Position numbers and translations under genes: made by a program
From: Catellatospora coxensis
GTDB taxonomy: Bacteria > Actinomycetota > Actinomycetes > Mycobacteriales > Micromonosporaceae
Reading direction: 5' to 3'
Assembly (NCBI RefSeq): GCF_016862635.1
Contig: NZ_BONI01000072.1
Coordinates: forward strand, 1-48,863
Length of the DNA stretch: 48,863 nucleotides
The notes under the pieces: model-generated
Told to the model about the DNA's origin: nothing
The model's input: only the letters and a program-made list of their open reading frames with translations
Database searches by the model: none
Shown here: positions 17,349 to 41,215 of the stretch, piece by piece
Numbering within the stretch: position 1 is the first letter of the stretch
How the letters are laid out: the number at the start of each line of letters is the position of its first letter

Positions 17349-17413
17349 ATAGACGTTGGCCTATCTCATCGAATCCGAGCCGCGGATTTTCGATGAGATA
17401 GGCCAACGTCTAT
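17349..17413. repeat. Dispersed 65-bp palindromic element, copy A
   Basis: A perfect 25-bp inverted repeat (17349-17373 and 17389-17413) surrounds a 15-base centre that can itself pair partly (TCCG/CGGA). The arms begin ATAGACGTTGGCCTATCTC. It lies between the convergent stop codons of prcA and the rmlB-like gene. T-rich sequence precedes and A-rich sequence follows the arms, which is opposite to an intrinsic terminator. Copies B, C and D lie at 26691, 29790 and 41151. Confidence 0.92.
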
Positions 17414-17475
17414 AAAATTCCGGGCGGGTGTGGCGCAGGGGTCGGGCGTCCGGCAGGTGGTTCGGCGACGGCGGT

Positions 17476-18450
17476 TCAGTGGTGGCGGGCGGTCAGGGGT
17501 TCCCACCAGGCGCGGTTGGCGCGGTACCAGGCGACGGTGGCGGCCAGCCCGTCGGTGAGCGCGACGGTGGGCCGGTAGCCGAGCTCCTCGGTGGCCTTCG
17601 TGCTGTCCAGGGCGTACCGGTGGTCGTGGCCGGGGCGGTCGGCGACGTGGTGGACCAGTTCCGGGCCGCGGTCGGTGAGCTTCAGCAGCAGGGCGGTGAG
17701 GTCGCTGTTGGCGAGTTCGTCGTGCCCGCCGAGGTGGTAGACCTCGCCGGCGCGCCCGTGGCGCAGGGCCAGCTCGACGCCGGCGCAGTGGTCGGTGACG
17801 TGCAGCCATTCGCGGCGGTGCGAGCCGTCGCCGTAGAGCGGCACGGGCAGCCCGTCGAGCAGGTTGGTGGTGAACAGCGGGATGATCTTTTCGGGGTACT
17901 GGTAGGGCCCGTAGGTGTTGCCCGAACGGGTGACCACGACGTCGAGGCCGTGGGTGGTGTGCGCGGCGAGCGCGAGCAGGTCGGCGCCGGCCTTGGACGC
18001 GGCGTAGGGCGAGCGCGGGGCGAGCGGCTGGTGTTCGGTCCAGCTGCCGGTGTCGGTGGAGCCGTAGACCTCGTCGGTGGAGACGTGCACGAAGCGGCCG
18101 GTGCGGTGGCGTGCGGCGGCGTCGAGCAGGATCTGGGTGCCGAGCATGTTGGTGCGGGCGAACTCGGCGGCGGCGGTGATGGACCGGTCGACGTGTGATT
18201 CGGCGGCGAAGTGGATCACCGCGTCGTGCCCGGCGACGAGGTCGTCGACCAGGTGCGGGTCGCAGATGTCGCCTTCGACGAAGGTGAGCCGGGGGTCGGC
18301 GGCGACGGGGGCGAGGTTGTCGCGGTTGCCGGCGTAGGTGAGCCGGTCGAGCACGGTGATCCGGTCGGTGGGGTGGCCCGGTGCGGCGAGCCGGGTGCGT
18401 ACGTAGTGGGAGCCGATGAAGCCCGCGCCGCCGGTGACCAGAAGTTTCAT
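17476..18450 (-). CDS. rmlB: dTDP-glucose 4,6-dehydratase family protein
   Basis: A 324-residue short-chain dehydrogenase/reductase of the extended RmlB type. The NAD motif GGAGFIG is at residues 7-13, followed by HFAAESHVDRS, the STDEVYG segment with the catalytic T-D-E, and the YAASK pair (Y/K). Further RmlB hallmarks are TRSGNTYGPYQYPEKIIP and REWLHVTDHC. The enzyme makes dTDP-4-keto-6-deoxyglucose for rhamnose or other deoxysugars. It stands alone, without rmlA, rmlC or rmlD, on the opposite strand between prcA and pafA, so it is an insertion in the proteasome block. A secondary-metabolism dehydratase acting on another sugar nucleotide cannot be excluded. Confidence 0.9.
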   Translation of the reverse strand: MKLLVTGGAGFIGSHYVRTRLAAPGHPTDRITVLDRLTYAGNRDNLAPVAADPRLTFVEGDICDPHLVDDLVAGHDAVIHFAAESHVDRSITAAAEFARTNMLGTQILLDAAARHRTGRFVHVSTDEVYGSTDTGSWTEHQPLAPRSPYAASKAGADLLALAAHTTHGLDVVVTRSGNTYGPYQYPEKIIPLFTTNLLDGLPVPLYGDGSHRREWLHVTDHCAGVELALRHGRAGEVYHLGGHDELANSDLTALLLKLTDRGPELVHHVADRPGHDHRYALDSTKATEELGYRPTVALTDGLAATVAWYRANRAWWEPLTARHH

Positions 18451-18559
18451 GACAACGGAAGTTTATGTCACGTTCCGTGGCGCGCCGTGCGCGACCTGCG
18501 GTTGCGGGGGCGGTCGGGGATCCGTCGCGATTACACCGGCGGCGTCAGGTCGTACGAGA

Positions 18560-18588
18560 GTGACCTTGGGCGTTTGGGCGGCTAGTGT
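18560..18588 (+). promoter_or_regulatory. Leaderless promoter of pafA
   Basis: GTGACC (18560-18565) and TAGTGT (18583-18588) are spaced 17 bases. The ATG of pafA follows the -10 by 6 bases, so the transcript should start at or beside the start codon. No ribosome binding site is visible. Confidence 0.6.
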
Positions 18589-18594
18589 CTGTGT

Positions 18595-19953
18595 ATGGAC
18601 CGACGAATCTTCGGACTGGAGACCGAGTACGGCGTCACCTGCACCTATCGGGGCCAGCGGCGGCTGTCTCCCGACGAGGTGGCGCGCTACCTCTTCCGCC
18701 GGGTCGTCTCATGGGGACGGTCCAGCAATGTCTTCCTGCGCAACGGCGCACGCCTCTACCTCGACGTCGGTTCCCACCCCGAGTACGCGACCCCCGAGTG
18801 CGATTCGGTGGTCGATCTGGTGGCGCACGACCGGGCGGGCGAGCGGATCCTGGAGGGTCTGCTCGTCGACGCCGAGAAGCGGCTGCACGACGAGGGTATC
18901 GCGGGGGAGATCTACCTCTTCAAGAACAACACCGACTCGGCGGGCAACTCGTACGGCTGCCACGAGAACTACCTGGTCTCGCGGCACGGGGAGTTCGGCA
19001 GGCTGGCGGACGTGCTGATCCCGTTCCTGGTGACGCGGCAGCTGATCTGCGGCGCGGGCAAGGTGCTGCAGACGCCGCGAGGCGCGGTCTACTGCCTGTC
19101 GCAGCGGGCCGAGCACATCTGGGAGGGCGTGTCGTCGGCGACGACCCGGTCCCGGCCGATCATCAACACCCGCGACGAGCCGCACGCGGACGCCGAGCGC
19201 TACCGGCGGCTGCACGTGATCGTCGGCGACTCGAACATGAACGAGGTCACCACGCTGCTGAAGGTGGGCAGCGCGGATCTGGTCCTCCGGATGATCGAGA
19301 CCGGGGTGGCGATGCCGGACCTGGCGCTGGAGAACCCGATCCGGGCGATCCGGGAGGTGTCGCACGACATCACCGGGCGGCGCAAGGTGCGGCTGGCCAG
19401 CGGCAAGGAGGCCAGCGCGCTGGAGATCCAGCGGATCTACCACGAGAAGGCGACGGAGTTCGTGGCGCGCCGCTCGGGTGACCCGTCGGCGCAGCGGGTG
19501 GTCGAGCTGTGGGGCCGGGTGCTCGACGCGGTGGAGTCGGGCAACCTGGGCGATGTGGGCCGGGAGATCGACTGGGTGACCAAGCTGCGGGTGATCGAGG
19601 CGTACCAGCGCAAGCATGATCTGCCGCTGTCGAGCCCGCGGGTGGCGCAGATGGATCTGGCGTACCACGACCTGCGCCGCGGCCGGGGGCTGTACCCGCT
19701 GCTGGAGAAGCGCGGCAAGGTCGACCGGGTGGTGACCGACCTGCGTACGTTCGAGGCGAAGGAGACGCCGCCGCAGACGACGCGGGCGCGGCTGCGGGGC
19801 GAGTTCATCCGGCACGCCCAGGAGAAGCGCCGCGACTTCACGGTCGACTGGGTGCACCTTAAGCTGAACGACCAGGCGCAGCGCACGGTCCTGTGCAAGG
19901 ACCCGTTCCGGGCCCACGACGAGCGCGTAGAACGCCTCATCGCCAGCATGTGA
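18595..19953 (+). CDS. pafA: Pup-protein ligase
   Basis: A 452-residue ligase that uses ATP to join the C-terminal glutamate of Pup to substrate lysines. The glutamine-synthetase-like active site shows [39 protein letters not shown] and [11 protein letters not shown]. It lacks the extra N-terminal loop of Dop, which separates the two paralogues in this window. The C-terminal domain ([25 protein letters not shown] is its end) is the small PafA domain. The ATG at 18595 is leaderless by the promoter described above. Here pafA is separated from prcA by the palindromic element and rmlB, and from pafBC by a small gene and a DUF3866 gene. Confidence 0.97.
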
Positions 19954-19964
19954 CCGCAAGTACA

Positions 19965-20012
19965 AGGAAGGGCACCTTCTTATCGCTTCGCGATGTAGAA
20001 GGTGCCCTTCTT
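19965..20012. repeat. Inverted pair of GAAGGTGCCCTTC repeats; pafA terminator
   Basis: Bases 19967-19980 and 19997-20010 are inverted copies of AGAAGGTGCCCTTC, with an inner stem ATCGC/GCGAT around a TTC loop. Together they form a long hairpin 11 bases after pafA, probably its terminator. The same unit occurs twice more at 20470 and 20501. Confidence 0.8.
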
Positions 20013-20201
20013 AACGCTTGAGGTGCCGCTGGCAGGCGTGATCGCTGTTTCGGGTCGGCGGGTCGGAAACTGCGGTTCGGCCCCGCGTGGTGACCGGAGA
20101 CGGCGATCATGCGACCTGCGCCGGGCCGGAAGTGGCGAGCAGGTGCTCGGGCCGGCGGCCGGTGGTCGAGGGCGGGGCGGGCTGGCTAAGCTCGCAGCAC
20201 T

Positions 20202-20408
20202 ATGAGCGAGCACCACGAGCGGCAGGCCGAACCGGTCGAGCGCACCGGCGAGGAAGTCCGGACCAACTGGGTTCAGCGCCGCCGCGACAAGATCTACAAC
20301 GAGATCTCGGCGAACCGGCGGGGCGAGTACACCGTGCCGACCTGGGTGCTTGCCGCCCTGCTCGGGCTGTTCGTGGCGGGCTGGATCGCGCTGATCGTCT
20401 CCAAGTGA
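20202..20408 (+). CDS. Small C-tail-anchored membrane protein, unrecognised
   Basis: A 68-residue protein. Residues 1-40 are charged and contain the basic patch VQRRRDKIYNEI; residues 47-65 form one hydrophobic helix (TWVLAALLGLFVAGWIALIV) and only SK follows. This looks like a tail anchor with the charged part in the cytoplasm. A TAAGCT -10-like box lies 9 bases before the ATG. The first residues (MSEHHER) resemble the mini-ORF before pafC (MSEHRER), so the true start may be further downstream. The gene is bracketed by pairs of the GAAGGTGCCCTTC repeat. Function unknown. Confidence 0.75.
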   Translation: MSEHHERQAEPVERTGEEVRTNWVQRRRDKIYNEISANRRGEYTVPTWVLAALLGLFVAGWIALIVSK

Positions 20409-20469
20409 GCCGCGCGGCCGCCGACCCGCGCCTGCCCTGCCGAACGCCCAGCTCAGCTGCCATCAGCAG

Positions 20470-20519
20470 TTAAGAAGGTGCCCTTCCTCTACGTATGGCG
20501 TTAAGAAGGTGCCCTTCCT
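20470..20519. repeat. Two direct copies of the TTAAGAAGGTGCCCTTCC repeat
   Basis: Copies start at 20470 and 20501, 31 bases apart. Each contains the 13-base imperfect palindrome GAAGG-TGC-CCTTC. The second copy ends directly at the stop codon (20520-20522) of the DUF3866 gene on the other strand. With the inverted pair at 19965-20012 this makes four copies in about 550 bases. Confidence 0.85.
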
Positions 20520-21602
20520 TCAGGTCGTCAGGGTGGTGGCGTGGCGGCCGGCGGCGGCGCAGGCGAGGAAGTAGGCGTGGTCGCCGTCGAGGTCGCGGCC
20601 CATGGTCGAGAGTTTGACGGGGGACGCGCGCAGGGCTTCGTCGAGGCCGCCGGTGGGGACGGTCACGATCCGGTGGCGGGCGGACAGCGGCGCCAGGGCT
20701 CGGGCCACGTCGGTGGCGAGGGGTTCGGGCAGGTCCGCGGGGACGACGAGGTCGGCGGGGGCGAGTGCGACGCGGCCGAACGAGGTCAGGCTGTGGTGGG
20801 ACACCCCGCGGTGGCGCGCGCGGGGGTCGGCGTCGGAGATGCGCAGGGCCCCGACGGGGCGGCCGCCGAGCACCGCCGCGGCGTTGACCGCCTCGCCGGC
20901 CGCGACGCCGGAGAAACCCCAGGTCGTACCGGTGCCGAGGTTGCCAGGACCCTGGCTGAGGATGGTGATGTCGGCCCGCAGCACGTGCCGGGCGGCGAGC
21001 AGCCCGGTGTGCACGTTGACGGATTCGAGATCGCCGCCCCAGGCCTGGCCGGTGGACACGGTGCCGGCCAGCCGGTCGCGCAGCGCGTCGAGGGTGCGGG
21101 AGAAGCCGGCTGCCAGCGCTCCGCCGTCGGTGAGCAGGTACGCCACCCGGGCCGTCGGCGCGTCGGCGTGGATGCCGGCCAGGATCGCGGGCAGCGCCGA
21201 GTGCAGGTCGGCCACGACGACCGGCATGCCGCCGAGGTCCTGGGCGGCGGCCAGCGTCTCGCGGTGCGGGGAGGCCTCCTCGTCGGCGGCGACCCGGATC
21301 GTCTGCAGCGGGCTGTAGCGGGCCTTGACGATGTGCCCGGGCACGGGCGTGTCCTCGGGCAGCCGTCCCGGCAGCGCGACGACCATGGCGTAGCCGCCGG
21401 TGCCGAGGCCGAGGGCGAGAGCGTTGGTGTTCAGCAGCACCTCGTCGCCGACCTCGGGCCGGCCGACCAGGTCGGGGTAGGCGAGGGCGCGTACCGTCGC
21501 GGGGTCGTCGGGGGTGCGGGCGACCAGGGCGACGGTGAGTTCCTGCGCGCCGTGCCAACTGCGGCCGAGCCGCTCCACCGTGCCTGTACGCCACCGAATC
21601 AC
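20520..21602 (-). CDS. DUF3866 family protein
   Basis: A 360-residue protein that I recognise as the actinobacterial DUF3866 family. It starts with a beta-rich segment (GDEVLLNTNALALGLGTGG) and continues with GHIVKARYSPLQ, VVVADLHSALP and the glycine-rich GPGNLGTGTTWGFSG. The family has no established function known to me; the alternating strands and glycine loops suggest a nucleotide or phospholigand fold, which is inference. The GTG at 21602 is 6 bases from a TAGGGT -10 box on the minus strand, and it is divergent from pafB. Its stop codon abuts a GAAGGTGCCCTTC repeat. Confidence 0.88.
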   Translation of the reverse strand: MIRWRTGTVERLGRSWHGAQELTVALVARTPDDPATVRALAYPDLVGRPEVGDEVLLNTNALALGLGTGGYAMVVALPGRLPEDTPVPGHIVKARYSPLQTIRVAADEEASPHRETLAAAQDLGGMPVVVADLHSALPAILAGIHADAPTARVAYLLTDGGALAAGFSRTLDALRDRLAGTVSTGQAWGGDLESVNVHTGLLAARHVLRADITILSQGPGNLGTGTTWGFSGVAAGEAVNAAAVLGGRPVGALRISDADPRARHRGVSHHSLTSFGRVALAPADLVVPADLPEPLATDVARALAPLSARHRIVTVPTGGLDEALRASPVKLSTMGRDLDGDHAYFLACAAAGRHATTLTT

Positions 21603-21608
21603 GCCCCG

Positions 21609-21614
21609 ACCCTA
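21609..21614 (-). promoter_or_regulatory. -10 box of a leaderless promoter for the DUF3866 gene
   Basis: Read on the minus strand, TAGGGT is followed by 6 bases and the GTG at 21602. Confidence 0.5.
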
Positions 21615-21732
21615 TCGGCCCGCCGGCCGGCCCCCGCCCACGACGCCCGGCACCGCGCCGTGACGGGGTGTGGTGGGGCGGCGGACAGGGCGTGAGCAGG
21701 TGTCGGACTGCGGGTGCGCGGGCGGGGGAACA

Positions 21733-21775
21733 AGCGCTCGCCGGTTACCGTTTCGAGCGCTCGCGCTGCTAGCGT
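21733..21775 (+). promoter_or_regulatory. pafB promoter region with direct repeats
   Basis: TAGCGT (21770-21775) is followed by 7 bases and the GTG of pafB, a leaderless arrangement. Two direct copies of AGCGCTCGC (21733-21741 and 21756-21764) are 23 bases apart, about two helical turns, across the -35 region. They could be a regulator site. Confidence 0.4.
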
Positions 21776-21782
21776 GGCGGTC

Positions 21783-22778
21783 GTGTCGCGCAGTCGAACC
21801 GAACGCCTGGTCAACCTTGTGATCTGTCTGCTGTCCACGCGGCGCTTCCTGACCGCCGCGCAGATCGCCGCCACCGTGCCCGGATACGAGCACAACGCCG
21901 ACGACGCCCGGGAACACGAGGCGTTCCAGCGCAAGTTCGAGCGGGACAAGGCCGAACTCCGCGCGCTCGGCGTGCCGCTGGAGACCGGCACCGCCAGTGT
22001 CTTCGACACCGAGCCCGGTTACCGCATCGCCCGGCGTGACTACGCGCTGCCGGCGATCCCGCTCGCGCCCGACGAGGCCGCCGCGGTCGGCGTCGCGGCC
22101 CGGCTGTGGCGGCACGCGGGTCTGGCCGCCGCCGCCACCTCGGGCCTGGCCAAGCTGCGCGCCGGCGGCGTCGACGTGGACCCGCACGCGACCCTGGGCG
22201 TCGAGCCCGTCGTCGCCGTGGACGCCGCGTTCGAGCCGCTCACCGGGGCGGCCCGGGCCCGCCGCGAGGTGACCTTCCCCTACCGGGTGCCCGAGGACGA
22301 CGCGCCCACCACCCGGCACCTGCAGCCGTGGGGCGTCGTCTGCTGGCGCGGCCGCTGGTACGTCGTCGGCCACGACACGGTCCGCGACGCGCCGCGCTGC
22401 TTCCGGCTGTCGCGCATCGTCGGCCCGGTGCGCCAGGTCGGCGAGGACAAGGCCTTCGAGCCGCCGGCCGACCTCGACCTGATCAGCTACGTGGCCCGCT
22501 GGTCCGGGCCGGTGGAGCGCAATCGCACCACCCGGGTGCTGGTGCGTCCGGGCCGGGCCGCGGGCGTACGCCGCTGGGCGGCCAGCTGCACCGCCACGCC
22601 CGACGGCGACGTCCTGGAGCTGCGCTACGCCGACGCGGACGGCTTCGCCGCCTGGCTCGTCGGCTACGGCGCGGACGTGACGGTCCTGGAGCCCGCCGAG
22701 GTGCGCGAGGCGACCGTCGCCCGGCTGCGCGAGATCGCCGGCGTGACCGCCCCCGCCGAGCTGGCAGAGGTGGCCTGA
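21783..22778 (+). CDS. pafB: WYL-domain transcription regulator PafB
   Basis: A 331-residue protein with an N-terminal winged helix-turn-helix (residues 5-80, SRTERLVNLVICLLSTRRFL), a central WYL domain (CWRGRWYVVGHD and CFRLSRI) and a C-terminal WCX domain. In mycobacteria PafB acts with PafC as activator of DNA-damage genes independent of LexA. The GTG at 21783 was chosen because the conserved SRSRTERLVN directly follows it and a -10 box lies 7 bases before it. A mini-ORF and pafC follow on the same strand, so the partners are co-expressed. Confidence 0.94.
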   Translation: MSRSRTERLVNLVICLLSTRRFLTAAQIAATVPGYEHNADDAREHEAFQRKFERDKAELRALGVPLETGTASVFDTEPGYRIARRDYALPAIPLAPDEAAAVGVAARLWRHAGLAAAATSGLAKLRAGGVDVDPHATLGVEPVVAVDAAFEPLTGAARARREVTFPYRVPEDDAPTTRHLQPWGVVCWRGRWYVVGHDTVRDAPRCFRLSRIVGPVRQVGEDKAFEPPADLDLISYVARWSGPVERNRTTRVLVRPGRAAGVRRWAASCTATPDGDVLELRYADADGFAAWLVGYGADVTVLEPAEVREATVARLREIAGVTAPAELAEVA

Positions 22779-22781
22779 GTC

Positions 22782-22853
22782 ATGAGCGAGCACCGCGAGC
22801 GAAACGGCAGGCTCGGGAATGCCGCCGGCGAGCAGAGCGAGGAGAAGGCATGA
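22782..22853 (+). CDS. Mini-ORF translationally coupled to pafC (23 residues)
   Basis: ATG at 22782, 3 bases after the pafB stop, opens a 23-codon frame that ends in TGA at 22851-22853, overlapping the pafC ATG as ATGA. Its last codons (GAG GAG AAG GCA) hold the pafC ribosome binding site. The peptide ends GEQSEEKA and resembles the ends of the mini-ORFs at 25732 and 28063. A translational coupling leader is more likely than a functional peptide. Confidence 0.5.
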   Translation: MSEHRERNGRLGNAAGEQSEEKA

Positions 22854-23797
22854 GCAGCGCGAAGACGTCGGCGGACCGGCTTGCCCGGCTGCTGAACCTG
22901 GTGCCGTACCTGCTGGCCCGGCCGGGTATCGAGCTGGTCGAAGCCGCCGCCGACCTGGGTGTGTCCGAGCGGCAGCTGCGCGAGGACCTGGAGCTGCTGT
23001 GGGTGTGCGGCCTGCCGGGGTACGGCCCGGGTGACCTCATCGACATGTCGTTCGACGGCGACCGGGTCACCATCACCTACGACGCGGGCATCGACCGGCC
23101 GCTGCGGCTGACCCCCGACGAGGCCACGGCGCTCGTGGTGGCGCTGCGCATGCTGGCCGAGACGCCCGGCGTGGCCGACCGTGACGCGATCCACCGCGCG
23201 CTGACGAAGATCGAGCAGGCCGCGGGCGAGATCGACGCGCCGGTGGCGGTGCGCCTGCCCGGCAACGACGACCGGCTGGCCGACCTGCGCGCGGCCCTGG
23301 AGCGCGGCAGGGCGCTGCGGCTGAGCTATTACTCGGCGGCGCGGGACGTGTCCAGCGAGCGGATCGTCGACCCGATGCGGCTGCTGTCGGTGTCCGGGCG
23401 CTCGTACCTGGAGGCCTGGTGCCGTTCGGCGGGCGCGGTGCGCATGTTCCGGGTGGACCGGATCGACGCGCTGACCGAGCTGGACCTCCCGGCCGCGCCG
23501 CCGGCCGAGGCGCAGTCCGGCGACGTCGCGGAGGGCGTGTTCCAGCCCGACCCGGACGCGCCGACGGTGACGCTGCGGGTCGGCCGGGGCGGCCGCTGGA
23601 TCACCGAGTACTACCCGTGCGAGTCGGTGGTAGAGGTGACGCCGGAGGAGTGGCTGGTCTCGCTGCGCGTCAACGACATGGACTGGGCGCGCCGGCTGGT
23701 GCTCGGCCTCGGTCCGCAGGTCGTCGTGGTCGCCCCCGCCGAACTGGCCGACTCGATCCGCGCCAGCGCCCTGCAGGCGCTCGCGGCGTACGCGTAG
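22850..23797 (+). CDS. pafC: WYL-domain transcription regulator PafC
   Basis: A 315-residue partner of PafB with the same layout: winged HTH (residues 5-60, LARLLNLVPYLLARPG), WYL domain (residues about 140-205, ending MFRVDRID) and a C-terminal WCX-type domain. The pair binds DNA as a heterodimer and responds to DNA damage in mycobacteria. The ATG at 22850 overlaps the stop of the preceding mini-ORF, and GAGGAG lies just upstream. Nothing follows on this strand for about 200 bases, so this ends the pafBC operon. Confidence 0.94.
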   Translation: MSSAKTSADRLARLLNLVPYLLARPGIELVEAAADLGVSERQLREDLELLWVCGLPGYGPGDLIDMSFDGDRVTITYDAGIDRPLRLTPDEATALVVALRMLAETPGVADRDAIHRALTKIEQAAGEIDAPVAVRLPGNDDRLADLRAALERGRALRLSYYSAARDVSSERIVDPMRLLSVSGRSYLEAWCRSAGAVRMFRVDRIDALTELDLPAAPPAEAQSGDVAEGVFQPDPDAPTVTLRVGRGGRWITEYYPCESVVEVTPEEWLVSLRVNDMDWARRLVLGLGPQVVVVAPAELADSIRASALQALAAYA

Positions 23798-23988
23798 GGG
23801 ACTCGCTGCCGCACCCGCGCCGGGCCGGCCTCGATCATCCGACTTGCCCGGCACCTGTACGTATCTTGAGTAGTCAATCGCCTACCTGCCTGGCAAATCG
23901 GTAGACCTTGGTGCGCGATCCGCCCGCCTTGAGCCGCGGTGGCGCGCGGGTCAGCGGCACGGCGGGGCGCGGTGGGCGGGGCAGGGGT

Positions 23989-23994
23989 TAGGCT
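23989..23994 (+). promoter_or_regulatory. -10 box of a leaderless promoter for the 88-residue membrane protein
   Basis: TAGGCT is followed by 6 bases and the GTG at 24001. The 203-base gap before it (23798-24000) holds no gene I can support; it contains a CTACC...GGTAG inverted repeat near 23881-23903. Confidence 0.5.
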
Positions 23995-24000
23995 GCTGGC

Positions 24001-26690: not shown

Positions 26691-26755
26691 ATAGACGTTG
26701 GCCTACCTCGGCGAATAAACGTCGACCCGAGTCGACGAGATAGGCCAACGTCTAT
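26691..26755. repeat. Dispersed 65-bp palindromic element, copy B
   Basis: Arms 26691-26714 and 26732-26755 share the family ends ATAGACGTTGGCCTA and TAGGCCAACGTCTAT, with two mismatches nearer the centre. The centre is different from the other copies and contains GTCGAC-CCGA-GTCGAC. It lies between the convergent stop codons of the lipid kinase and the P450, at the edge of the P450 module. Confidence 0.9.
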
Positions 26756-29789: not shown

Positions 29790-29854
29790 ATCGACGCTGG
29801 CCTATCTCATCGACTTTCGGGAGCCCGTTTTCAATGAGATAGGCCAGTGTCGAT
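29790..29854. repeat. Dispersed 65-bp palindromic element, copy C
   Basis: Arms 29790-29813 and 29831-29854. Relative to the other copies the outer arm reads ATCGACGCTGG and the partner arm CCAGTGTCGAT; two base pairs are changed on both sides so pairing is kept, and one pair is a G-U wobble. It lies 21 bases from the HAD gene stop and about 85 bases upstream of the reductase start, the other edge of the P450 module. Confidence 0.9.
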
Positions 29855-29875: not shown

Positions 29876-30631
29876 TCAGGGGGACTTGGGGAGGGCGAGG
29901 GAGAGGGCGCGGTGGAGGCCGTTGGGGCGGCCGGGGGAGGCGGCGGGCACGACCAGGGCGGCGCAGCCGGCGTTCACCGCGCCCGCGTCGGCGGGGGTGT
30001 CGCCGATCATGAGAGCGCGTTCGGGATCGACCGACAGCATGCCGCAGGCCCGCAGGAAGATCTTGGGATCGGGTTTGATGCAGCCCACCTCGTACGACAG
30101 CACCAGCGCGTCGAACAGCGCGGTCAGCCCCCAGGCGTCCAGCATCGGGCGCAGGTCGAAGCCGATGTTGCTGACCAGCGCGGTGCGCACCCCGGCGGCC
30201 CGCAGCGTCGTCAGCGTGTTCGTGACGTCGGGGTACAGCGCCCACCCGGCGGGCGTCAGCACGCGGGCGTAGAGGGCGTCGGGCAGCCCGGGGACGTCGT
30301 TGGGCACGGTCGCCGCCAGGCCGGTGTACACCTCGCGGTGGGCGTGCTCGTAGAGGTCGCGGTCGGCCCAGGCCATGGCCAGCTGCGGAGGCACCCGCAC
30401 CGGGGGCGACACGCCGGGGAGCGCGCCGGCGGTGGCCAGCCGGTCGGCGAGCACCGTGGCCCTGCCCCGGTCCAGCGTGACGCCGCAGTCGGCGGCCGCC
30501 GCGGTGACCCAGGCCACCGGGTCTACGGTCACGGCCAGGGTGCCGTGGAAATCGAAGAGCACGGCGTCGAGGGCGCGGTGACCGTCGATCCGTGCCGGGT
30601 GGGCGTACGGCTGCGGCGGGGACTCGGGCAC
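29876..30631 (-). CDS. HAD-superfamily hydrolase
   Basis: A 251-residue haloacid-dehalogenase-like hydrolase. Motif I is FDFHGT with nucleophile D27; the usual second aspartate (general acid) is H29. Motif II is LVSNIG, motif III has the lysine in CIKPDPKIF, and motif IV is MIGDTPADAG. The cap domain lies between residues about 40 and 130. It probably acts on a phosphorylated metabolite, though the DxH variant may lower phosphatase activity. The GTG at 30631 follows a TATCCT -10 box by 6 bases. It is divergent from helY by 54 bases. Confidence 0.88.
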   Translation of the reverse strand: MPESPPQPYAHPARIDGHRALDAVLFDFHGTLAVTVDPVAWVTAAAADCGVTLDRGRATVLADRLATAGALPGVSPPVRVPPQLAMAWADRDLYEHAHREVYTGLAATVPNDVPGLPDALYARVLTPAGWALYPDVTNTLTTLRAAGVRTALVSNIGFDLRPMLDAWGLTALFDALVLSYEVGCIKPDPKIFLRACGMLSVDPERALMIGDTPADAGAVNAGCAALVVPAASPGRPNGLHRALSLALPKSP

Positions 30632-34451: not shown

Positions 34452-34482
34452 GCGTCCCGGGGCGGCTGTCCCAGGCCTGTGG

Positions 34483-34488: not shown

Positions 34489-34495
34489 GTCAGGC

Positions 34496-35413
34496 ATGAC
34501 CGGACCCCTGCTCGCCATCGACGCGCCGAGCCTGTACTTCCGCGCCTTCCACGGTGTGCCCGCCAAGGCGGCGATGGCCCCGAACGGCACCCCCGTCAAC
34601 GCGGTGCGCGGCTTCCTGGACATGGTCACCACGCTGGTCAAGGGCCGCCGGCCGGACCGGCTGGTGTGCGCGCTGGACTACGACTGGCGGCCGGCGTGGC
34701 GGGTGGCGCTGATCGGCACGTACAAGACTCACCGGGTCGCCCCCGCGGGCGGCGAGGAGGTGCCCGACGAGCTGGTGCCGCAGGTGGACCTGCTGCTGGA
34801 GGTGCTCGACGCGTTCGGCATCGTGGCGTACGGGGTGGACGGCAACGAGGCCGACGACGTGCTCGGCACGCTCGCGGCGACGCAGGCCGCGCCCGTCGAG
34901 GTGGTCTCCGGCGACCGCGACCTGTTCCAGCTGGTCGACGACGCGCGCGGGGTGCGGCTGCTCTACGTCGGCCGCGGCGTGGCCAAGCTCGAGGACTGCG
35001 ACGAGGCCGCGGTGCTGGCCAAGTACGGCGTCCCGGCGGGCGGCTACGCCGACTTCGCGGCGCTGCGCGGCGACCCGAGCGACGGCCTGCCCGGCGTGGC
35101 GGGCGTGGGGGAGAAGACCGCCGCCCGGCTGATCGAGCGCTACGGCAGCCTGGACGCGATCGTCGCGGCAGTGGGCGACCCTGCGTCGGACTTCGCCCCC
35201 GGCCTGCGCACCAAGCTGGAGGCCGCCTCGGACTACCTGGCCGTGGCGCCGAAGGTGGTGCGGGTGGCCACCGACCTGAAGCTGCCCGAGCACGACCTGA
35301 CCCTGCCCAGGGTGCCGCGCGATCCGGAGCGCCTGTTCGACCTGGCCGAGCAGTGGAACCTGGCGAGCCCGTGCCGCCGGCTGGTGGACGCCCTGGCGGA
35401 GAACGCCGCCTGA
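34496..35413 (+). CDS. 5'-3' exonuclease (DNA polymerase I N-domain type)
   Basis: A 305-residue stand-alone FEN-like nuclease homologous to the N-terminal domain of DNA polymerase I. Metal-binding acidic residues are visible in LLAIDAPSLYFRAFHG, VCALDYD, DGNEADDVLGTLA and VVSGDRDLFQLVDD. A helix-hairpin-helix segment follows (DGLPGVAGVGEKTAARLI). It removes RNA primers or 5' flaps. Mycobacteria carry the same gene beside helY. The following DUF6328 gene is on the same strand 63 bases on. Confidence 0.94.
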   Translation: MTGPLLAIDAPSLYFRAFHGVPAKAAMAPNGTPVNAVRGFLDMVTTLVKGRRPDRLVCALDYDWRPAWRVALIGTYKTHRVAPAGGEEVPDELVPQVDLLLEVLDAFGIVAYGVDGNEADDVLGTLAATQAAPVEVVSGDRDLFQLVDDARGVRLLYVGRGVAKLEDCDEAAVLAKYGVPAGGYADFAALRGDPSDGLPGVAGVGEKTAARLIERYGSLDAIVAAVGDPASDFAPGLRTKLEAASDYLAVAPKVVRVATDLKLPEHDLTLPRVPRDPERLFDLAEQWNLASPCRRLVDALAENAA

Positions 35414-35476
35414 GCCCGTCCGAGTCGGCATGATCTCCGCTGCCCCGGGCATACCCTGGGGATGCGGAGGCTGACA

Positions 35477-35968
35477 GTGACTGACATCGACGGCGACCGG
35501 CGGCAGGAGTCGGCGGAGGACCCGGACGAGCGCTGGAATCGCAACTACTCGGAGCTGCTGCAGGAGCTGCGGGTGGCGCAGACCGGCGTGCAGATCCTGT
35601 TCGCGTTCCTGCTGACGCTGCCGTTCTCGGTCGGCTTCGGGAAGATCAACGGCACCGAGCGGGTGCTGTACGTCGTTACGTTCATCTGCAGCGCGCTCGC
35701 GGCGTCCCTGCTCATCGCCCCGGTCAGCTACCACCGGCTGGCGTTCCGGGAGGGGCGCAAGCCGCAGATCGTGCGCACCGCGCACGTGCTGGCGCAGTTC
35801 GGCCTGTTCTTCGAGATGGCCGCGATCGTGCTGGCCATCTACCTGGTCGTCGACGTGGTGGCGGGGGTGCGCTGGGCGGGTTTCCTGGGCGGCGGCATGG
35901 CCCTGATCTACATCCTGCTCTGGTACGTGCTGCCGCTGGCCACCAAGCCGTCGCAGCCGGGTGACTGA
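35477..35968 (+). CDS. DUF6328 family membrane protein
   Basis: A 163-residue protein recognised by the RWNRNYSELLQELRVAQTGVQ segment and four membrane helices (about residues 40-60, 66-86, 108-128 and 134-154). Function unknown in the family. I chose the GTG at 35477 because GGAGG lies 6 bases before it; an in-frame ATG at 35462 would add five residues. A TACCCT -10-like box is at 35452-35457. A strong hairpin follows the gene. Confidence 0.85.
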   Translation: MTDIDGDRRQESAEDPDERWNRNYSELLQELRVAQTGVQILFAFLLTLPFSVGFGKINGTERVLYVVTFICSALAASLLIAPVSYHRLAFREGRKPQIVRTAHVLAQFGLFFEMAAIVLAIYLVVDVVAGVRWAGFLGGGMALIYILLWYVLPLATKPSQPGD

Positions 35969-35991
35969 CCGGCCCGACCCCGGACATACGG

Positions 35992-36031
35992 GAAGCCCGG
36001 CTTATCTCACTGGTGAGATCGGTCGGGCTTC
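35992..36031. terminator. Two-stage hairpin between convergent genes
   Basis: Outer stem GAAGCCCG (35992-35999) / CGGGCTTC (36024-36031) and inner stem ATCTCAC (36004-36010) / GTGAGAT (36013-36019). It lies between the DUF6328 gene and the universal stress protein gene and can terminate both. Confidence 0.75.
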
Positions 36032-36079
36032 ACTTCTCACGTTAGACCGGCATATCCGGCATGTCAATCCTTGGCCCGA

Positions 36080-36976
36080 TTATTTCTTGGCCTCGCCGCG
36101 CCGGTGCGCGACGATCACCGGGCACCCGGCGTGGTGGATCAACGCCTGGCTGACCGAGCCCAGCAGCAGGCCGGTGAACCCGCCCAGGCCCCGGCAGCCG
36201 ACCACCACCAGCAGCGCGCCCATGGACTGCTCGGTCAGCGCGGCCGCCGCCGACGACTCCATGGTGATCCGCTGCAGGTCGATGTGCGGGTAGCGGTCGT
36301 GCCAGCCCGCCACCGCCGTCTCCAGCACCGACTCCTCCTGGGCGCGCAGCGTGTCGATGTCGTACACGAACGGCATGCCCGCCGCGCCCGTGGTGATCGG
36401 CCCCAGCCAGGCGTGCACGGCGGTGATGCCGCAGCCGCGCCGGTCGGCCTCGTCGAAGGCGAACGCCAGCGCGTCGCCCGACTGCGGCGAGCCGTCCACC
36501 CCGACCACGATCCGGCCCACCGCGCCCACGCCGGCGCGGTCCGGGGCGGCCGGCGGGCGCACCACCGCCACCGGGCACCGGGCGTGCATCGACACCTGCA
36601 GGCTCGTCGAGCCGAGCATCAGGTCGTGGAAGCCGCCGTGGCCCCGGCTGCCGACGACGACCAGCGCCGCCGCCTCCGACTCCCGGATCAGGCCGTGCGC
36701 GGGGTCGTCGCGCAGCACCTCGCTGGTGAGCGTGATGTCCGGCCGCATCGCCCGGACCTCGGTCATCGCGTGCTCGGTCACCGTGTGCCCGGCAGACGAG
36801 ATCGCCGCCTCCGCGACGCCGTCGCCGAGCCTCGGCCCCGGGTCCTCGCTCACGTGGACGATCCGCAGGGGCAGCCCGCGCAGCGCGGCCTCGTCGGCAG
36901 CCCAGCGCAGCGCCGTCGTGGCGGCCGGCGAGCCGTCCACGCCCACCACCACCGGCCCGGTCAGCCCGACGCTCAT
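36080..36976 (-). CDS. Universal stress protein with two UspA domains
   Basis: A 298-residue tandem UspA protein. Domain 1 covers residues about 8-145 and ends in the ATP-binding motif VGSRGHGGFHDLMLGSTS; domain 2 covers about 155-295 and has VGCRGLGGFTGLLLGSVS. Both fit the G-2x-G-9x-G-S pattern, so ATP binding is likely. VVVGVDGSP marks the start of each domain (IVVGVDGSP in the second). Such proteins aid survival in starvation or hypoxia in actinobacteria. It is divergent from the membrane protein at 37053. Confidence 0.94.
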   Translation of the reverse strand: MSVGLTGPVVVGVDGSPAATTALRWAADEAALRGLPLRIVHVSEDPGPRLGDGVAEAAISSAGHTVTEHAMTEVRAMRPDITLTSEVLRDDPAHGLIRESEAAALVVVGSRGHGGFHDLMLGSTSLQVSMHARCPVAVVRPPAAPDRAGVGAVGRIVVGVDGSPQSGDALAFAFDEADRRGCGITAVHAWLGPITTGAAGMPFVYDIDTLRAQEESVLETAVAGWHDRYPHIDLQRITMESSAAAALTEQSMGALLVVVGCRGLGGFTGLLLGSVSQALIHHAGCPVIVAHRRGEAKK

Positions 36977-37052
36977 GGCCCGCCTCCCTGCTCAGCTCAC
37001 TTCCACTATGTCCTTTCCCGGCCCCCTCCGGTGGGAAACGGGCGGTATATAA

Positions 37053-37658
37053 ATGCTGGTCAGGGCTTTGCGCCGAGCGGCTGCCCGGCTACGGTGGCGC
37101 GTGCTCTTCGTCAAGGACCTCCTCATCGGCCTCGCGCTGATCATCGGCGCGGCCTGGGGCATCCGGGCCCTGTGGCGACCGGTCCCGCCGATCTGGAGCG
37201 GCACGCGGCGGCACGTGCCGTTCCGGGGCGGCCGGGTCTACCTGATCCACCCCCGCAGCTACCTGACCGGGATCCTGCCGCTGACCGCCCTGCTCGCCTC
37301 GCTCATCGCGCTGGGCCTGCAGTTCCTGGTGCACGGCTGCGCGCGGCTGGATCCGGCTCTCTACTCGCTGGGTCCGGCCCGCGCGTTCGTGCTGCTGGGC
37401 GCGCTCGCCGTGCCGTTGACGGTGCTGCAGTGGGTGGTCAACGCGGTCAACCGCCCTGCCCGGCTGGTGCCGCCGGGGCTGCGCGACGAGCCTGGCTGGG
37501 TCGCGCGGCGGTGGCGGCCGGCCGAGGTGACGAGGATCCGCAACATGCGCCACAAGGCCGATCGTCGCGCCCGGCGCCGGCGGCGACAGAACCGGAACGA
37601 GCCGGGTGCGGTCGTGCGGCGGCAGGCTGGCCAGGCGCGGACACCTAACGTTCGTTAA
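37053..37658 (+). CDS. Membrane protein with basic tail, unrecognised
   Basis: A 201-residue protein with three hydrophobic segments (about residues 20-40, 72-93 and 108-131) and a very basic C-terminus (RRRRRQNRN). I recognise no family. The ATG at 37053 follows a TATATAA stretch. A GTG at 37101, in frame, is 5 bases after TACGGT (37090-37095) with TTTGCG 17 bases before it, so a shorter leaderless start is possible and would remove 16 basic residues. The end overlaps the palindrome upstream of the acyl-CoA dehydrogenase. Confidence 0.75.
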   Translation: MLVRALRRAAARLRWRVLFVKDLLIGLALIIGAAWGIRALWRPVPPIWSGTRRHVPFRGGRVYLIHPRSYLTGILPLTALLASLIALGLQFLVHGCARLDPALYSLGPARAFVLLGALAVPLTVLQWVVNAVNRPARLVPPGLRDEPGWVARRWRPAEVTRIRNMRHKADRRARRRRRQNRNEPGAVVRRQAGQARTPNVR

Positions 37659-37661
37659 GCT
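37646..37661 (+). promoter_or_regulatory. Palindromic operator and leaderless -10 for acyl-CoA dehydrogenase
   Basis: TAACG-TT-CGTTA (37646-37657) is a perfect 5-2-5 palindrome. It overlaps the -10-like TAAGCT (37656-37661), which is 6 bases before the ATG at 37668. Such a site beside a fatty-acid gene suggests a TetR-family repressor. Confidence 0.45.
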
Positions 37662-37667
37662 GGCTGC

Positions 37668-38816
37668 ATGCCCAGCGTTACCCGACTGCTTCCCACCCCC
37701 GAAGCACACGACCTGCTCGAGCTCACCCGCGAGATCGCGGACAAGGAACTCGCGCCGCACGCCGACGACTTCGAGGCGCGCGGGGAGTTCCCCCGCGAGC
37801 TGATCCGCACCCTGGGCCGCTCCGGCCTGCTCGGCCTGCCCTACTCCGCCGAGTACGGCGGCGCGGAGCAGCCGTACGAGGTCTACCTGCAGGTGCTGGA
37901 GATCCTCGCCAGCCGGTGGGTCGGCATCGCGGAGACGGTCAGCGTGCACACCCTGGCCTGCTACCCGCTGGCCCATCACGGCACCGCGGAGCAGCGCGAG
38001 CGCTGGCTGCCCGACATGATCGGCGGCGACCTGCTCGGCGCGTACTGCCTGTCCGAGCCCGCCGGCGGATCCGACGCCGCCAACCTCGCCACGAAGGCCG
38101 TCCGCGACGGCGAGGGGTACCGGGTGAGCGGCACCAAGGCGTGGATCACCCACGCGGGCGTGGCCGACTTCTACAACGTCTTCTGCCGCACCGGCGGCCC
38201 CGGCCCGAAGGGCATCTCCTGCCTGCTGGCACCGGCGGACACGCCCGGCCTGAACCCGCAGGCGCGGGAGAAGACCATGGGCCTGCGCTCCTCGCCGGTC
38301 GCCCAGATCGCGCTCGACGACGCGGTGGTGCCCGCCGAGCGGCTGATCGGCGGCGAGGGCGAGGGCTTCCGGATCGCGATGGGCGCGCTGGACTCGGGCC
38401 GGCTCGGCATCGCGGCCTGCGCGATCGGCCTGGCCCAGGGCGCGCTGGACTACGCGGTGAACTACGCCCGGGAGCGGGTGCAGTTCGGCAAGCCGATCAT
38501 CGACCTGCAGGGTCTGGGCTTCATGCTGGCCGACGCGTCGACGCAGATCACCGCGGCGCGGGCGCTGATGCTGCACGCGGCCCGGCTGCGCGACGCTGGC
38601 CTGCCGTACTCGATCGAGGCGGCCAAGACCAAGCTGTTCGCCACGGACATGGCCATGCAGGTCGCCACGGACGCGGTGCAGGTGCTGGGCGGGGCGGGCT
38701 ACGTCGCCGACCACCCGGTCGAGCGCTACTTCCGCGAGGCCAAGGTGCTGCAGATCGTCGAGGGCACCAACCAGATCCAGCGCATGGTGATCGCCCGGTC
38801 GCTGGCCAAGGACTGA
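37668..38816 (+). CDS. Acyl-CoA dehydrogenase
   Basis: A 382-residue flavoprotein of the medium/short-chain class. Visible are LGLPYSAEYGG, the substrate/FAD segment YCLSEPAGGSDAAN, GTKAWITHAG, RVQFGKPI and the C-terminal catalytic-region RYFREAKVLQIVEGTNQIQ; the glutamate before GTNQIQ is the usual catalytic base. It oxidises an acyl-CoA to enoyl-CoA using FAD. It starts at ATG 37668 and is followed by a terminator, so it is transcribed alone. No electron-transfer flavoprotein or thiolase gene is nearby. Confidence 0.95.
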   Translation: MPSVTRLLPTPEAHDLLELTREIADKELAPHADDFEARGEFPRELIRTLGRSGLLGLPYSAEYGGAEQPYEVYLQVLEILASRWVGIAETVSVHTLACYPLAHHGTAEQRERWLPDMIGGDLLGAYCLSEPAGGSDAANLATKAVRDGEGYRVSGTKAWITHAGVADFYNVFCRTGGPGPKGISCLLAPADTPGLNPQAREKTMGLRSSPVAQIALDDAVVPAERLIGGEGEGFRIAMGALDSGRLGIAACAIGLAQGALDYAVNYARERVQFGKPIIDLQGLGFMLADASTQITAARALMLHAARLRDAGLPYSIEAAKTKLFATDMAMQVATDAVQVLGGAGYVADHPVERYFREAKVLQIVEGTNQIQRMVIARSLAKD

Positions 38817-38830
38817 CCCCTTCCGCCGTA

Positions 38831-38873
38831 CGCCGACCCGGATCCGTGGCCCGCGCCACGATCCGGATCGGCG
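38831..38873 (+). terminator. Hairpin terminator of the acyl-CoA dehydrogenase gene
   Basis: The arm at 38831-38849 (CGCCGACCCGGATCCGTGG) pairs, with one mismatch and one bulge, with 38856-38873, followed by TTT. Confidence 0.75.
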
Positions 38874-38880
38874 TTTCCTG

Positions 38881-38929
38881 TTGTGCCCCGGCCTGCCTGG
38901 TGATGTAATTCCTACAAAGCCGCTAGGAA
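38881..38929 (+). promoter_or_regulatory. Promoter with inverted repeat for the cysteine dioxygenase operon
   Basis: TTGTGC (38881-38886), 17 bases, then TGTAAT (38904-38909). TTCCTA (38909-38914) and TAGGAA (38924-38929) form a 6-9-6 inverted repeat over the expected start of transcription. Rrf2-type sulfur regulators or persulfide sensors are possible binders, by inference. Confidence 0.5.
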
Positions 38930-38935
38930 AAGCAG

Positions 38936-39418
38936 GTGATCCGAATGATCGTCCACACCGGGGTCCGGGCCGACCATCTGAGCACGGCCCGCCGCCTGGC
39001 CGCCGACCCCGGCGCCTGGCCCGTCGCGCCCCGCTTCGACCCGGAGCGACGCTGGTATCACCGGCTGCTGGGCGAACCCGGGGTCGAGGCGTGGCTGCTC
39101 ACCTGGCTGCCCGGCCAGCAGACCGACCTGCACGACCACGGGGGCAGCGCGGGCGCGTTCGTGGTCGTCTCCGGCACGCTGACCGAACGCACCGTGACCG
39201 GCCCGGACGGCGCGACTCGGCTCACCGGCCGGGTGCTGCCCGCCGGGGCGGCCCGCCAGTTCGGCGAGCACCACCTGCACCAGATCGTCAACGAGGGCGG
39301 CGAGCCCGCCGTGAGCGTGCACGTGTACGGCCCCGAGCTGACGACCATGACCCGCTACCGGCTCCAGGGCGGACGGCTGCGGGTGGCTGCCGTCGACCGG
39401 GCGGGAGCACAGTGGTGA
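38936..39418 (+). CDS. Cysteine dioxygenase-family cupin protein
   Basis: A 160-residue cupin similar to bacterial cysteine dioxygenases. The iron-binding histidines correspond to H66 and H68 (LHDHGGSAGAFVVVSG) and H129 (VSVHVYGPEL). It oxidises L-cysteine or another thiol to the sulfinate. AGGA lies 7 bases before the GTG at 38936; an ATG at 38945 is an alternative. The stop overlaps the rhodanese start (GTGA), so the two are coupled. Other thiol dioxygenase substrates, such as 3-mercaptopropionate, cannot be excluded. Confidence 0.9.
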   Translation: MIRMIVHTGVRADHLSTARRLAADPGAWPVAPRFDPERRWYHRLLGEPGVEAWLLTWLPGQQTDLHDHGGSAGAFVVVSGTLTERTVTGPDGATRLTGRVLPAGAARQFGEHHLHQIVNEGGEPAVSVHVYGPELTTMTRYRLQGGRLRVAAVDRAGAQW

Positions 39419-39828
39419 GCGTGCACCCCGACCCCGCCCCGCCCGTGGGCTCGCGCGGCATCGACGAGATCCTCGCCGCGGCGCGCTCGCGGCTGACCCG
39501 CCTCGACGCACCGGCCGCGGCGGCCGCCCAGCGCGACGGGGCGCTGCTGGTCGATATCCGGCCGGTGGCCCAGCGGGCCGCGCACGGCGGCATCCCCGGC
39601 GCGCTGATCGTCGAGCGCAACGTCCTCGAATGGCGCTTCGACCCGCGCAGCGACGCCCGGCTTCCGCAGGCCGGCCGGTACGACCTGCCGGTGGTGGTGT
39701 TCTGCCAGGAGGGGTACACGTCCTCGCTGGCCGCTGCCGCGCTCCAGGAGCTCGGCCTGCACCGGGCCACCGACCTCACGGGCGGCTACGCCGCCTGGCA
39801 GGCCGCGGGCCTGCCCGTCACCGCCTGA
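39415..39828 (+). CDS. Rhodanese-like sulfurtransferase
   Basis: A 137-residue single rhodanese domain with the active-site cysteine C97 in the loop CQEGYTSS. It moves sulfane sulfur to a nucleophile through a persulfide. It is preceded by about 35 residues of Ala/Pro-rich leader. Translation is coupled to the cysteine dioxygenase. Together the two suggest control of cysteine and persulfide levels. The GTG at 39415 was chosen over the adjacent in-frame GTG at 39412 because of the GTGA overlap. Confidence 0.9.
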   Translation: MSVHPDPAPPVGSRGIDEILAAARSRLTRLDAPAAAAAQRDGALLVDIRPVAQRAAHGGIPGALIVERNVLEWRFDPRSDARLPQAGRYDLPVVVFCQEGYTSSLAAAALQELGLHRATDLTGGYAAWQAAGLPVTA

Positions 39829-40008
39829 CGCGCCAGGCAGGCCGGACGCCGGGGCCGCCGGCCCGCGGCTCCGTACCGGGCGACGTGGATCGGGTCGGGC
39901 CGGGTCCGGTCACCGACAGCCACCTCGTGGCCACCTCTGCTGATCTTGCAAGAGTGCTGCGGCCGTGGCAGGCTGCCGGGAGCCCCGTCGACGATGAGGA
40001 GGCACGAC

Positions 40009-40800
40009 ATGGCCGTCGACCCCCGGACGCTGGTCGAGGAGTGGGACGCCTGGCGTGCCGCCCGCGAGCAGGAGCTGCGTGCCCCGCACGGGTGGCTGAG
40101 CCTCACCGCGCTGCACTGGCTGCCCGCCGACGAGGTCGCCCTGCCCGGCGTGCCGGGACGCTGGCACGTGCACGCCGACGGTGTACGGCTGCTCGCCGAG
40201 GCGGGTGACGGGTTCAGCCATGCGGGTGAACCCGTCGAGGGCGAGCTGATGCTCAGCCCGGCCGAGGGCGGCATCGGCATCACGCTCGACCACGGCGACC
40301 GGCTCGTCGAGCTCATCCAGCGCGGCGGGGCGTACGCCCTGCGCGTGCGCGACCCCCAGGCGCCGACCCGGACCGGCTTCACCGGCGTGCCCATGTTCAC
40401 GCTCGACGCGCGCTGGGTGCTGGACGCGGTCTTCGAGCCGTACGACACGCCCCGCCCGGTCACCGTCGGCGCGGTCATCCCCGGGCTGACCCACGATCAG
40501 ATCGCCCGGGGCGTGCTGCGCTTCGAGATCGACGGGGCCGCGCAGGCCCTGACGGCCATGGACGCGGCCGACGGCAGCCTGTCCGTGCTGTTCCGCGACG
40601 CGACCAGTGGTGTGACGACGCACGGCGGGGCGCGCTCGCTGACGGTGGCCGAGCCCGGCGTGGACGGCGCGGCGGTCGTCGACTTCAACCGCGCGGTCAA
40701 CATGCCGTGCGCGTTCACCGACTACGGCACGTGCCCGCTGCCGCCGCCGGAGAACCTGCTGGCGGTAGCGGTCGAGGCGGGGGAGCGGACGCCCCGCTGA
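40009..40800 (+). CDS. DUF1684 family protein
   Basis: A 263-residue soluble protein recognised by HGWLSLTALHWLPADE near the N-terminus and DFNRAVNMPCAFTDYGTCPLPPPEN near the C-terminus, both hallmarks of DUF1684. The fold is mostly beta; function is not established. GAGGAGG lies 6 bases before the ATG at 40009. An upstream ATG at 39946 is less likely since it would precede the ribosome binding site. It is convergent with the small membrane protein, one base apart. Confidence 0.9.
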   Translation: MAVDPRTLVEEWDAWRAAREQELRAPHGWLSLTALHWLPADEVALPGVPGRWHVHADGVRLLAEAGDGFSHAGEPVEGELMLSPAEGGIGITLDHGDRLVELIQRGGAYALRVRDPQAPTRTGFTGVPMFTLDARWVLDAVFEPYDTPRPVTVGAVIPGLTHDQIARGVLRFEIDGAAQALTAMDAADGSLSVLFRDATSGVTTHGGARSLTVAEPGVDGAAVVDFNRAVNMPCAFTDYGTCPLPPPENLLAVAVEAGERTPR

Positions 40801-40801
40801 G

Positions 40802-41053
40802 TCACCAGTGCTGGCCGCCGTGGCCGGAGGCCAGTGCCTCGGCGTGCGCGCGGCTCTTCTTGAGCTTGCGCGGCAGCCGCTCCTTCTTGTGCTTGGGCGT
40901 GCTGTCCGGGTGCGTGCTCAGCCCGGCCAGTGCCGTGTAGCTGTCCTCGGTCGCCTGCATCCGCCGGCGCCGGTACGCCATGACGGCGCCGACCCCTGCG
41001 GCCGCCGCGGAGACCACTCCGGCGGTGATCCAGCTGATCTTGCTCGTTGCCAT
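40802..41053 (-). CDS. Small membrane protein, unrecognised
   Basis: An 83-residue protein with an N-terminal membrane helix (residues 6-27, WITAGVVSAAAAGVGAVMAY) followed by RRRR and a basic, disordered tail. AAGGAGAGGG just upstream of the ATG at 41053 is a strong ribosome binding site, which supports a real gene. Positive charges after the helix place the tail in the cytoplasm. Family and function unknown. Confidence 0.75.
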   Translation of the reverse strand: MATSKISWITAGVVSAAAAGVGAVMAYRRRRMQATEDSYTALAGLSTHPDSTPKHKKERLPRKLKKSRAHAEALASGHGGQHW

Positions 41054-41150
41054 CGCCCTCTCCTTCGTTCCGCTGCTCGACCATAGCCCGATGCGAGCGG
41101 ATATGAGGCGTTTTGCCCATTCGGGCTGCACGCGACGGCACCCGTTCTTC

Positions 41151-41215
41151 ATAGACGTTGGCCTATCACGTCGAATCCGAGCCCCGGTTTTTCGATGAGA
41201 TAGGCCAACGTCCAT
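41151..41215. repeat. Dispersed 65-bp palindromic element, copy D
   Basis: Arms 41151-41175 and 41191-41215, with two mismatches and a G-U type pair. The centre (TCCGAGCCCCGG...) is almost the same as in copy A. Flanks TTCTT and AAGAA can extend the stem. It lies 60 bases from the stop of the FKBP gene on the minus strand. Confidence 0.9.

Follow-up and report, generated by a model that had tools for sequence, protein, structure and literature searches.

Repetitive extragenic palindromes (REPs) that occur as REP doublets forming hairpins (REPINs) consist of two units in inverted orientation that flank a short spacer and form persistent populations in a genome. Both traits are shared by a 65-bp palindrome that is present in four copies (A to D) in the stretch of Catellatospora coxensis DNA analyzed here (contig NZ_BONI01000072.1, 48,863 nucleotides; hereafter the window). 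The four copies are members of one Catellatospora-restricted family of REP-like extragenic palindromes (type 1), whose elements are inherited in place while their inner arms are rewritten. Judged from sequence and position, the family probably acts as a terminator without a U-tract (U-less terminator) or as a 3'-end hairpin. REPINs are mobilized by a REP-associated tyrosine transposase (RAYT; PMC3116915). In contrast, the Y1-type transposase family PF01797 is absent from 5 of the 11 Catellatospora genomes carrying type 1, and single type-1 arms fold weakly. No earlier description of such a repeat in Catellatospora was found in titles and abstracts of the open-licence literature.

The REPs tagged with GTAG or CGTC are likewise short, dispersed extragenic palindromes of convergent and tandem gaps near gene 3' ends, and CGTC families also occur without a dedicated transposase, according to the available text of PMC3733652, in which Actinobacteria are not mentioned. 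Type 1 shares the high copy number and the extragenic location at 3' ends. However, tagged REPs are monomers of 20-40 bp with stems of 8-9 bp (PMC3733652) and carry the tag unpaired at one end, whereas type 1 is a single 65-bp palindrome with CGTC/GACG at the paired arm positions 4-7 and no unpaired GTAG or CGTC. Five single arms folded alone reached only -1.0 to -7.4 kcal/mol. Since the unpaired tag is missing, single arms fold weakly and a general link to a RAYT is lacking, type 1 was not assigned to the tagged REPs. A further comparison is provided by actinomycete 3' ends. In Streptomyces, many of these map to stable hairpins poor in or devoid of U residues (PMC8269248, PMC12207403). Such U-less (I-shaped) terminators and bidirectional 3' ends resemble type 1 in having a stable hairpin past the stop codon with a weak or absent U-tract, but they are not described as one repeated family in the accessible parts of these two reports, and the A-rich and T-rich flanks are reversed in Catellatospora.

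The half-arm pattern GATAGGCCANNGTC had 82 forward and 91 reverse exact matches in the C. coxensis genome (9.35 Mb, 222 contigs), whereas its reversed control had none on either strand, which excludes chance. A stricter two-arm pattern retrieved 61 elements. Provided that every match sits in a two-armed element, an estimated 91-112 elements match the half-arm pattern exactly in one or both arms. The first 100 of the 173 half-arm matches led to 59 places, all of which contained a two-armed element (one place has two). Together with the window, this gave 64 elements, 62 of them 65 bp and two 66 bp long. Solo arms were not found, as all 108 exact half-arm matches in the 59 fetched stretches and the window were located inside two-armed elements. 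This bears on the DNA uptake sequences of Neisseriaceae and Pasteurellaceae, which are similar in their group-specific core, their inverted pairs at gene ends and their species variants (PMC3630211, PMC2346458) and are reported to serve, when paired, as terminators (PMC2267715). In these systems, hundreds to thousands of motifs are reported, compared with about 100 copies here. An uptake sequence would be expected in many solo copies, also inside genes, whereas the Catellatospora core did not stand alone in any of the 108 matches.

Among 300 genomes of the family Micromonosporaceae, the 11 from Catellatospora contained 2-121 half-arm matches per strand, whereas the remaining 289 were at chance level (0-3 matches, the same as the control). 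A covariance model made from the own-genome copies matched all 11 Catellatospora genomes, with at least 150 places (both strands counted) in four genomes, 125-149 in four more, and 78, 21 and 19 in the genomes labeled G129, G051 and G071, respectively. These counts correspond to about 60 or more elements in 8 of the 11 genomes, and the number per species spans about 10 to more than 75. The expectation of the initial annotation that further, covarying copies should exist in the genome and its relatives was therefore borne out throughout the genus. A scan of named genomes returned at least 69 stretches; among the matches listed, 62 were from Catellatospora (C. methionotrophica, C. sichuanensis, C. 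vulcania, C. bangladeshensis and C. sp. KI3) and seven from other bacteria. The latter are read as chance, because each contained one arm and the second was absent within 65 bases. With a second, genus-wide model, five of the 189 other genomes of a 200-genome sample yielded a single match (E 3e-9 to 8e-4); these matches could be old relatives or other hairpins. Across the phylum, the two-arm pattern was found in 1 of 396 genomes, namely the own genome, in a sample without other Catellatospora. Rfam 15 had no match above the gathering score in the window.

For the structural analysis, 132 of 134 listed elements from ten genomes were kept; G087b 11619 and G100b 139562 were removed as chance matches. 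The general layout comprises 24-nt arms around a 17-nt loop, and the arm core GACGyTGGCCTATC is near-invariant. In the core-position analysis (131 elements, 123 of them 65 nt), positions 10-16 were almost constant in the 123 copies while the loop drifted, although this conservation is inflated by the search, in which one arm had to resemble the core closely. Arm positions 19-22 fall into discrete blocks of the types CATC, GGAT, GATC and AGAG. A distinct subfamily with the inner arm TAGAGGA and loops such as CGGATC..GGAAATCCG was observed at loci L300-L305 of G118; among the sampled copies it was restricted to this genome, apart from a similar one in one G133 copy. The oriented loop reads about [GC]TTCGATCnnCGAAnnn[GC]; it contains a GATC motif and forms an inner stem that is weaker and asymmetrically bulged. 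Over the 64 own-genome copies, the flanks follow a loose, complementary consensus (CCCCG[CT]TTTTC ... GAAAA[G]CGGGG), and the T-rich left and A-rich right flanks described in the initial annotation are real as a trend of these copies. Position by position, pairing of the outer flanks was not in excess over composition, and the outer stem thus reflects a shared consensus rather than covariation.

Such an arrangement would also suit a DNA site at which a sequence-specific dimeric protein, for example a nucleoid, gyrase-type or transcription-roadblock factor, contacts two cores at fixed spacing. The near-invariant core in both arms, the fixed 17-nt loop and the lack of an RNA-strand bias among arm mismatches (see below) are in line with it. 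The inner-arm blocks vary between species, with several coexisting in some genomes, and the 108 half-arm matches included no solo half-site; both observations argue against such a site, which we regard as very improbable.

The covariation analysis was based on 82 of the 132 elements (the 65-nt copies from other species plus one in three of the own-genome copies). Pairing was found in 88.7% of the cells of this alignment, a value to be read with the search requirement of 17 out of 24 pairs, which leans towards pairing. The covariation score was 0.282, compared with 0.134 after shuffling (reached in 0 of 500 shuffles, which ignore relatedness) and at most 0.068 for slid partners. In the loop, five pairs were kept in 41-58 of the 82 copies. 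The inner-arm block belonged to the same recognized class in both arms of 123 of the 132 copies. The initial annotation had taken the compensatory changes as a hairpin under selection. Strong covariation was confirmed, but it does not by itself point to selection on the hairpin, since the same pattern can arise when the polymerase switches templates from one arm to the other. This process is reported to homogenize inverted arms and to invert the spacer (PMC8604942, PMC8794818). By keeping the arms complementary, it would suffice for a selfish or neutral palindrome without function, for which gene 3' ends would be the best tolerated places, and the agreement of the two inner-arm blocks is as expected from this explanation. 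The constancy of core positions 10-16 against a drifting loop (subject to the search bias mentioned above) and the maintained length of 65 bp are not, and overall we consider a neutral palindrome possible but rather unlikely.

Inheritance was followed in syntenic stretches of six species, in which the same gaps often bear an element. At nine orthologous gaps, the loop identity was 0.614 (34 between-species pairs of equal length) compared with 0.447 for unrelated gaps, and the loop orientation agreed in 37 of 46 between-species same-gap pairs. The inner arms behaved differently, with an identity of 0.606 at orthologous gaps, 0.615 at unrelated gaps and 0.811 within species. One gap combines both features, as G000 and G129 have a rare 18-nt loop in common while 6 of 8 inner-arm positions differ. 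Loop and orientation are thus shared without arm likeness, which indicates that the elements persist by descent and that the inner arms do not carry it. The within-species arm identity is high in some genomes (G000, G087, G125) and about 0.6 in others (G100, G109, G129), so that homogeneity is not a general trait. The opposite loop orientation in 9 of the 46 pairs is what spacer inversion would give (PMC8604942), and this, like the lack of any long hairpin in several gaps of relatives, is compatible with a neutral palindrome. The gaps are too diverged between species to read insertion borders or target-site duplications. In G100, a gap on C9 orthologous to G000 C8:102914 has element-like borders (ATAGACGT ... 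ACGTCTAT) and encloses a run of N and odd sequence, perhaps an assembly failure at a hairpin.

At the window sites, 27 site-by-relative comparisons were readable (A 4, B 7, C 8, D 8), and no type-1 element was present in 26 of them. The single exception was site B, where G087 carries a type-1 element in the corresponding gap; the gap of copy D was free of type 1 in all eight relatives compared. Such patchiness, together with the varying element number per species and the discrete arm subfamilies, would agree with a non-autonomous miniature inverted-repeat transposable element (MITE) of an unrecognized transposase with a strong preference for gene 3' ends. The loops are the most variable part of the element, though a burst of transposition would share them, and copy A had no match in phage or plasmid records. 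The MITE/REP-like label of the initial annotation is only partly appropriate. It suits a dispersed 3'-end palindrome. The tag is missing, and the search it proposed for a REP-type transposase or insertion sequence with these ends gave no general partner: no insertion sequence or other larger element with these ends was found among the 59 fetched places, and PF01797 was present in only 6 of the 11 genomes (other transposase families were not searched). It was absent from G118, G016, G133, G100 and G051, of which the first four contain many type-1 copies nevertheless. Because PF01797 is missing from 5 of 11 carriers, mobilization by a RAYT was rejected as the common cause. A MITE is, in our judgment, improbable.

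Relative to genes predicted with a home-made gene caller, the 132 elements are situated in the gaps of convergent (76), tandem (50) and divergent (6) gene pairs. The background of 1204 gene pairs in the fetched stretches, element-bearing ones included, comprised 173 convergent, 852 tandem and 179 divergent pairs, resulting in an odds ratio of 8.1 for the convergent arrangement (76/132 vs 173/1204). Counted by gaps in the fetched stretches, type 1 occupied 23 of the 166 gaps between convergent genes, 15 of the 707 between tandem genes and one of the 174 between divergent genes. Convergent gaps are hence favored even over tandem ones, which a merely tolerated palindrome would not explain. The nearest gene 3' end is at a median distance of 34 nt (10-90% range 12-70, n=126). 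In tandem gaps, the loop was oriented sense in 35 and antisense in 15 copies. Such gaps do not count as independent observations, and once copies sharing a gap had been taken out by hand, the ratio was 26 to 13 (p 0.053), so the bias is suggestive only. Pairs of elements about 1.15 kb apart were observed at L056 in G000 (1555, 2704) and L314 in G125 (1482, 2631). Both loci adjoin the same neighboring genes, with one called gene between the copies in L314 and none in L056.

Other hairpins occupy the same niche. Another inverted repeat (score at least 12) was detected in 18 of the 26 type-1-free gaps of relatives, flanks included, at the window sites (Table 1). In type-1-free gaps of the fetched stretches generally, the share with an inverted repeat scoring at least 14 was 64/143 for convergent, 108/692 for tandem and 9/173 for divergent gene pairs, and composition shuffles gave none. 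Part of these hairpins belong to a few repeated families. The family GGAAGGGCrCCTTC has 78-417 matches in each of the 11 Catellatospora genomes except G016, where 4 were counted and type-1 matches are most numerous. The counts of both families were negatively correlated over the 11 genomes (rho -0.71, p 0.015; -0.61, p 0.06 without G051), although species are not independent data points and both families are abundant in G000. The GGAAGGGCACCTTC-type core has 179+185 matches in the own genome, and two stretches of this type lie within about 550 bases in the window (19964-20015 and 20469-20520). These data suggest that a few mutually replaceable repeated families may be the source of many Catellatospora gene-end hairpins, which would be relevant to the origin of actinomycete terminators. 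A more far-reaching explanation takes the loop as a slot-specific, vertically inherited tag and has both arms overwritten genome-wide by the current types of the species, either via a dedicated enzyme or via template switching and exchange, while unrelated hairpin families compete for the slots; it appears unlikely to us.

We favor the reading of type 1 as a U-less 3'-end hairpin whose arms are restored by template switching and whose arm types spread without a RAYT, and consider it an even call whether this combination is correct. The transcribed palindrome would form a strong hairpin acting as a bidirectional terminator or as an exonuclease barrier, and the one or two genes reading into it would have their transcripts ended or protected. 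The arm complementarity would be kept in part by the DNA polymerase switching templates between the arms, a process that would occasionally also invert the loop. Arm types would pass from copy to copy through ectopic exchange or sporadic new insertions. The position makes a 3'-end signal plausible, and the stable hairpin soon after the stop codon, which characterizes U-less terminators, is predicted here as well (RNA fold of 17323-17440 around copy A, -77.8 kcal/mol, z -11.35). The joint change of both arms around an inherited loop fits template switching. Template switching alone does not explain the same arm type in many copies of one species, for which we infer exchange or replacement.

Several observations weigh against this 3'-end hairpin. 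At copy A, the only copy scanned, a U-tract and terminator-like sites (0) are lacking, and the T-rich sequence before and A-rich sequence after the arms (64 copies) are the reverse of a bidirectional terminator. With its U-tract absent at copy A and its right flank A-rich, a canonical intrinsic terminator was rejected. On the sense strand of tandem copies, G-U and A-C mismatches were about equally frequent (35:39), giving no sign of RNA-strand selection. The near-invariant core exceeds what a terminator stem needs. In G129, G087 and others, several gaps lack a long hairpin where sisters bear an element, with at most a short palindrome from two stop codons, so the element is dispensable there. 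Finally, copy D would be redundant, because a separate GC-rich hairpin with counterparts at the same gap in most relatives is already present between it and the gene end, which makes copy D an extra hairpin.

The evolution of the arms is the most interesting part of the family. Since loop and arms of one element carry different histories, type 1 is a natural case for separating selection from template switching as causes of compensatory changes. The copies are numerous, genus-wide and easily scored, which makes mobility, termination and arm exchange testable.

The four palindromes of the window were confirmed where the initial annotation had placed them, each with the layout described above (Table 1). 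Their distances to the nearest stop codon (26, 21, 21 and 60 nt for copies A-D) and their convergent (A, B) or tandem minus-strand (C, D) settings agree with the gene calls, and the paired changes claimed for copy C were found on both sides. Copy C also has a G.T wobble at arm position 7.

Table 1. Type-1 copies of the window and hairpins at the corresponding sites
Feature	Position	Strand	Description	Surroundings or genomes
Copy A	17349..17413	no strand	24-nt arm + 17-nt loop ATCCGAGCCGCGGATTT + 24-nt arm; R1 score 91 bits	convergent gene ends 17322 (+) and 17476 (-)
Copy A with 11-nt flanks	17338..17424	no strand	flanks loosely conserved, complementary; family consensus CCCCGCTTTTC ... GAAAAGCGGGG	
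Copy B	26691..26755	no strand	two arm mismatches	convergent gene ends 26669 (+) and 26790 (-)
Copy C	29790..29854	no strand	C-G at arm positions 3 and 8, both sides	21 nt beyond stop of minus-strand gene 29876-30631
Copy D	41151..41215	no strand	loop close to that of copy A	60 nt beyond stop of minus-strand gene 41276-41956
Separate hairpin	41225..41256	no strand	GC-rich; outside the type-1 family	between copy D and gene end
Site A other hairpin			GTTTCGTGTC type	G100, G109
Site B other hairpin			GGAAGGGCACCTTC type	G129, G125, G100
Site C other hairpin			CAACTCTTAAAGA type	G129, G125, G100, G109
Site D hairpin			GC-rich; same kind in window at 41225-41256	7 of 8 relatives

The window contains other repeats as well. 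A 300-base direct repeat is located at 2-301 and 3535-3834 (89% identical). Three stretches within 13688-14084 and 18909-19299 are repeated 5.2 kb apart with 78-82% identity, which suggests two related genes.

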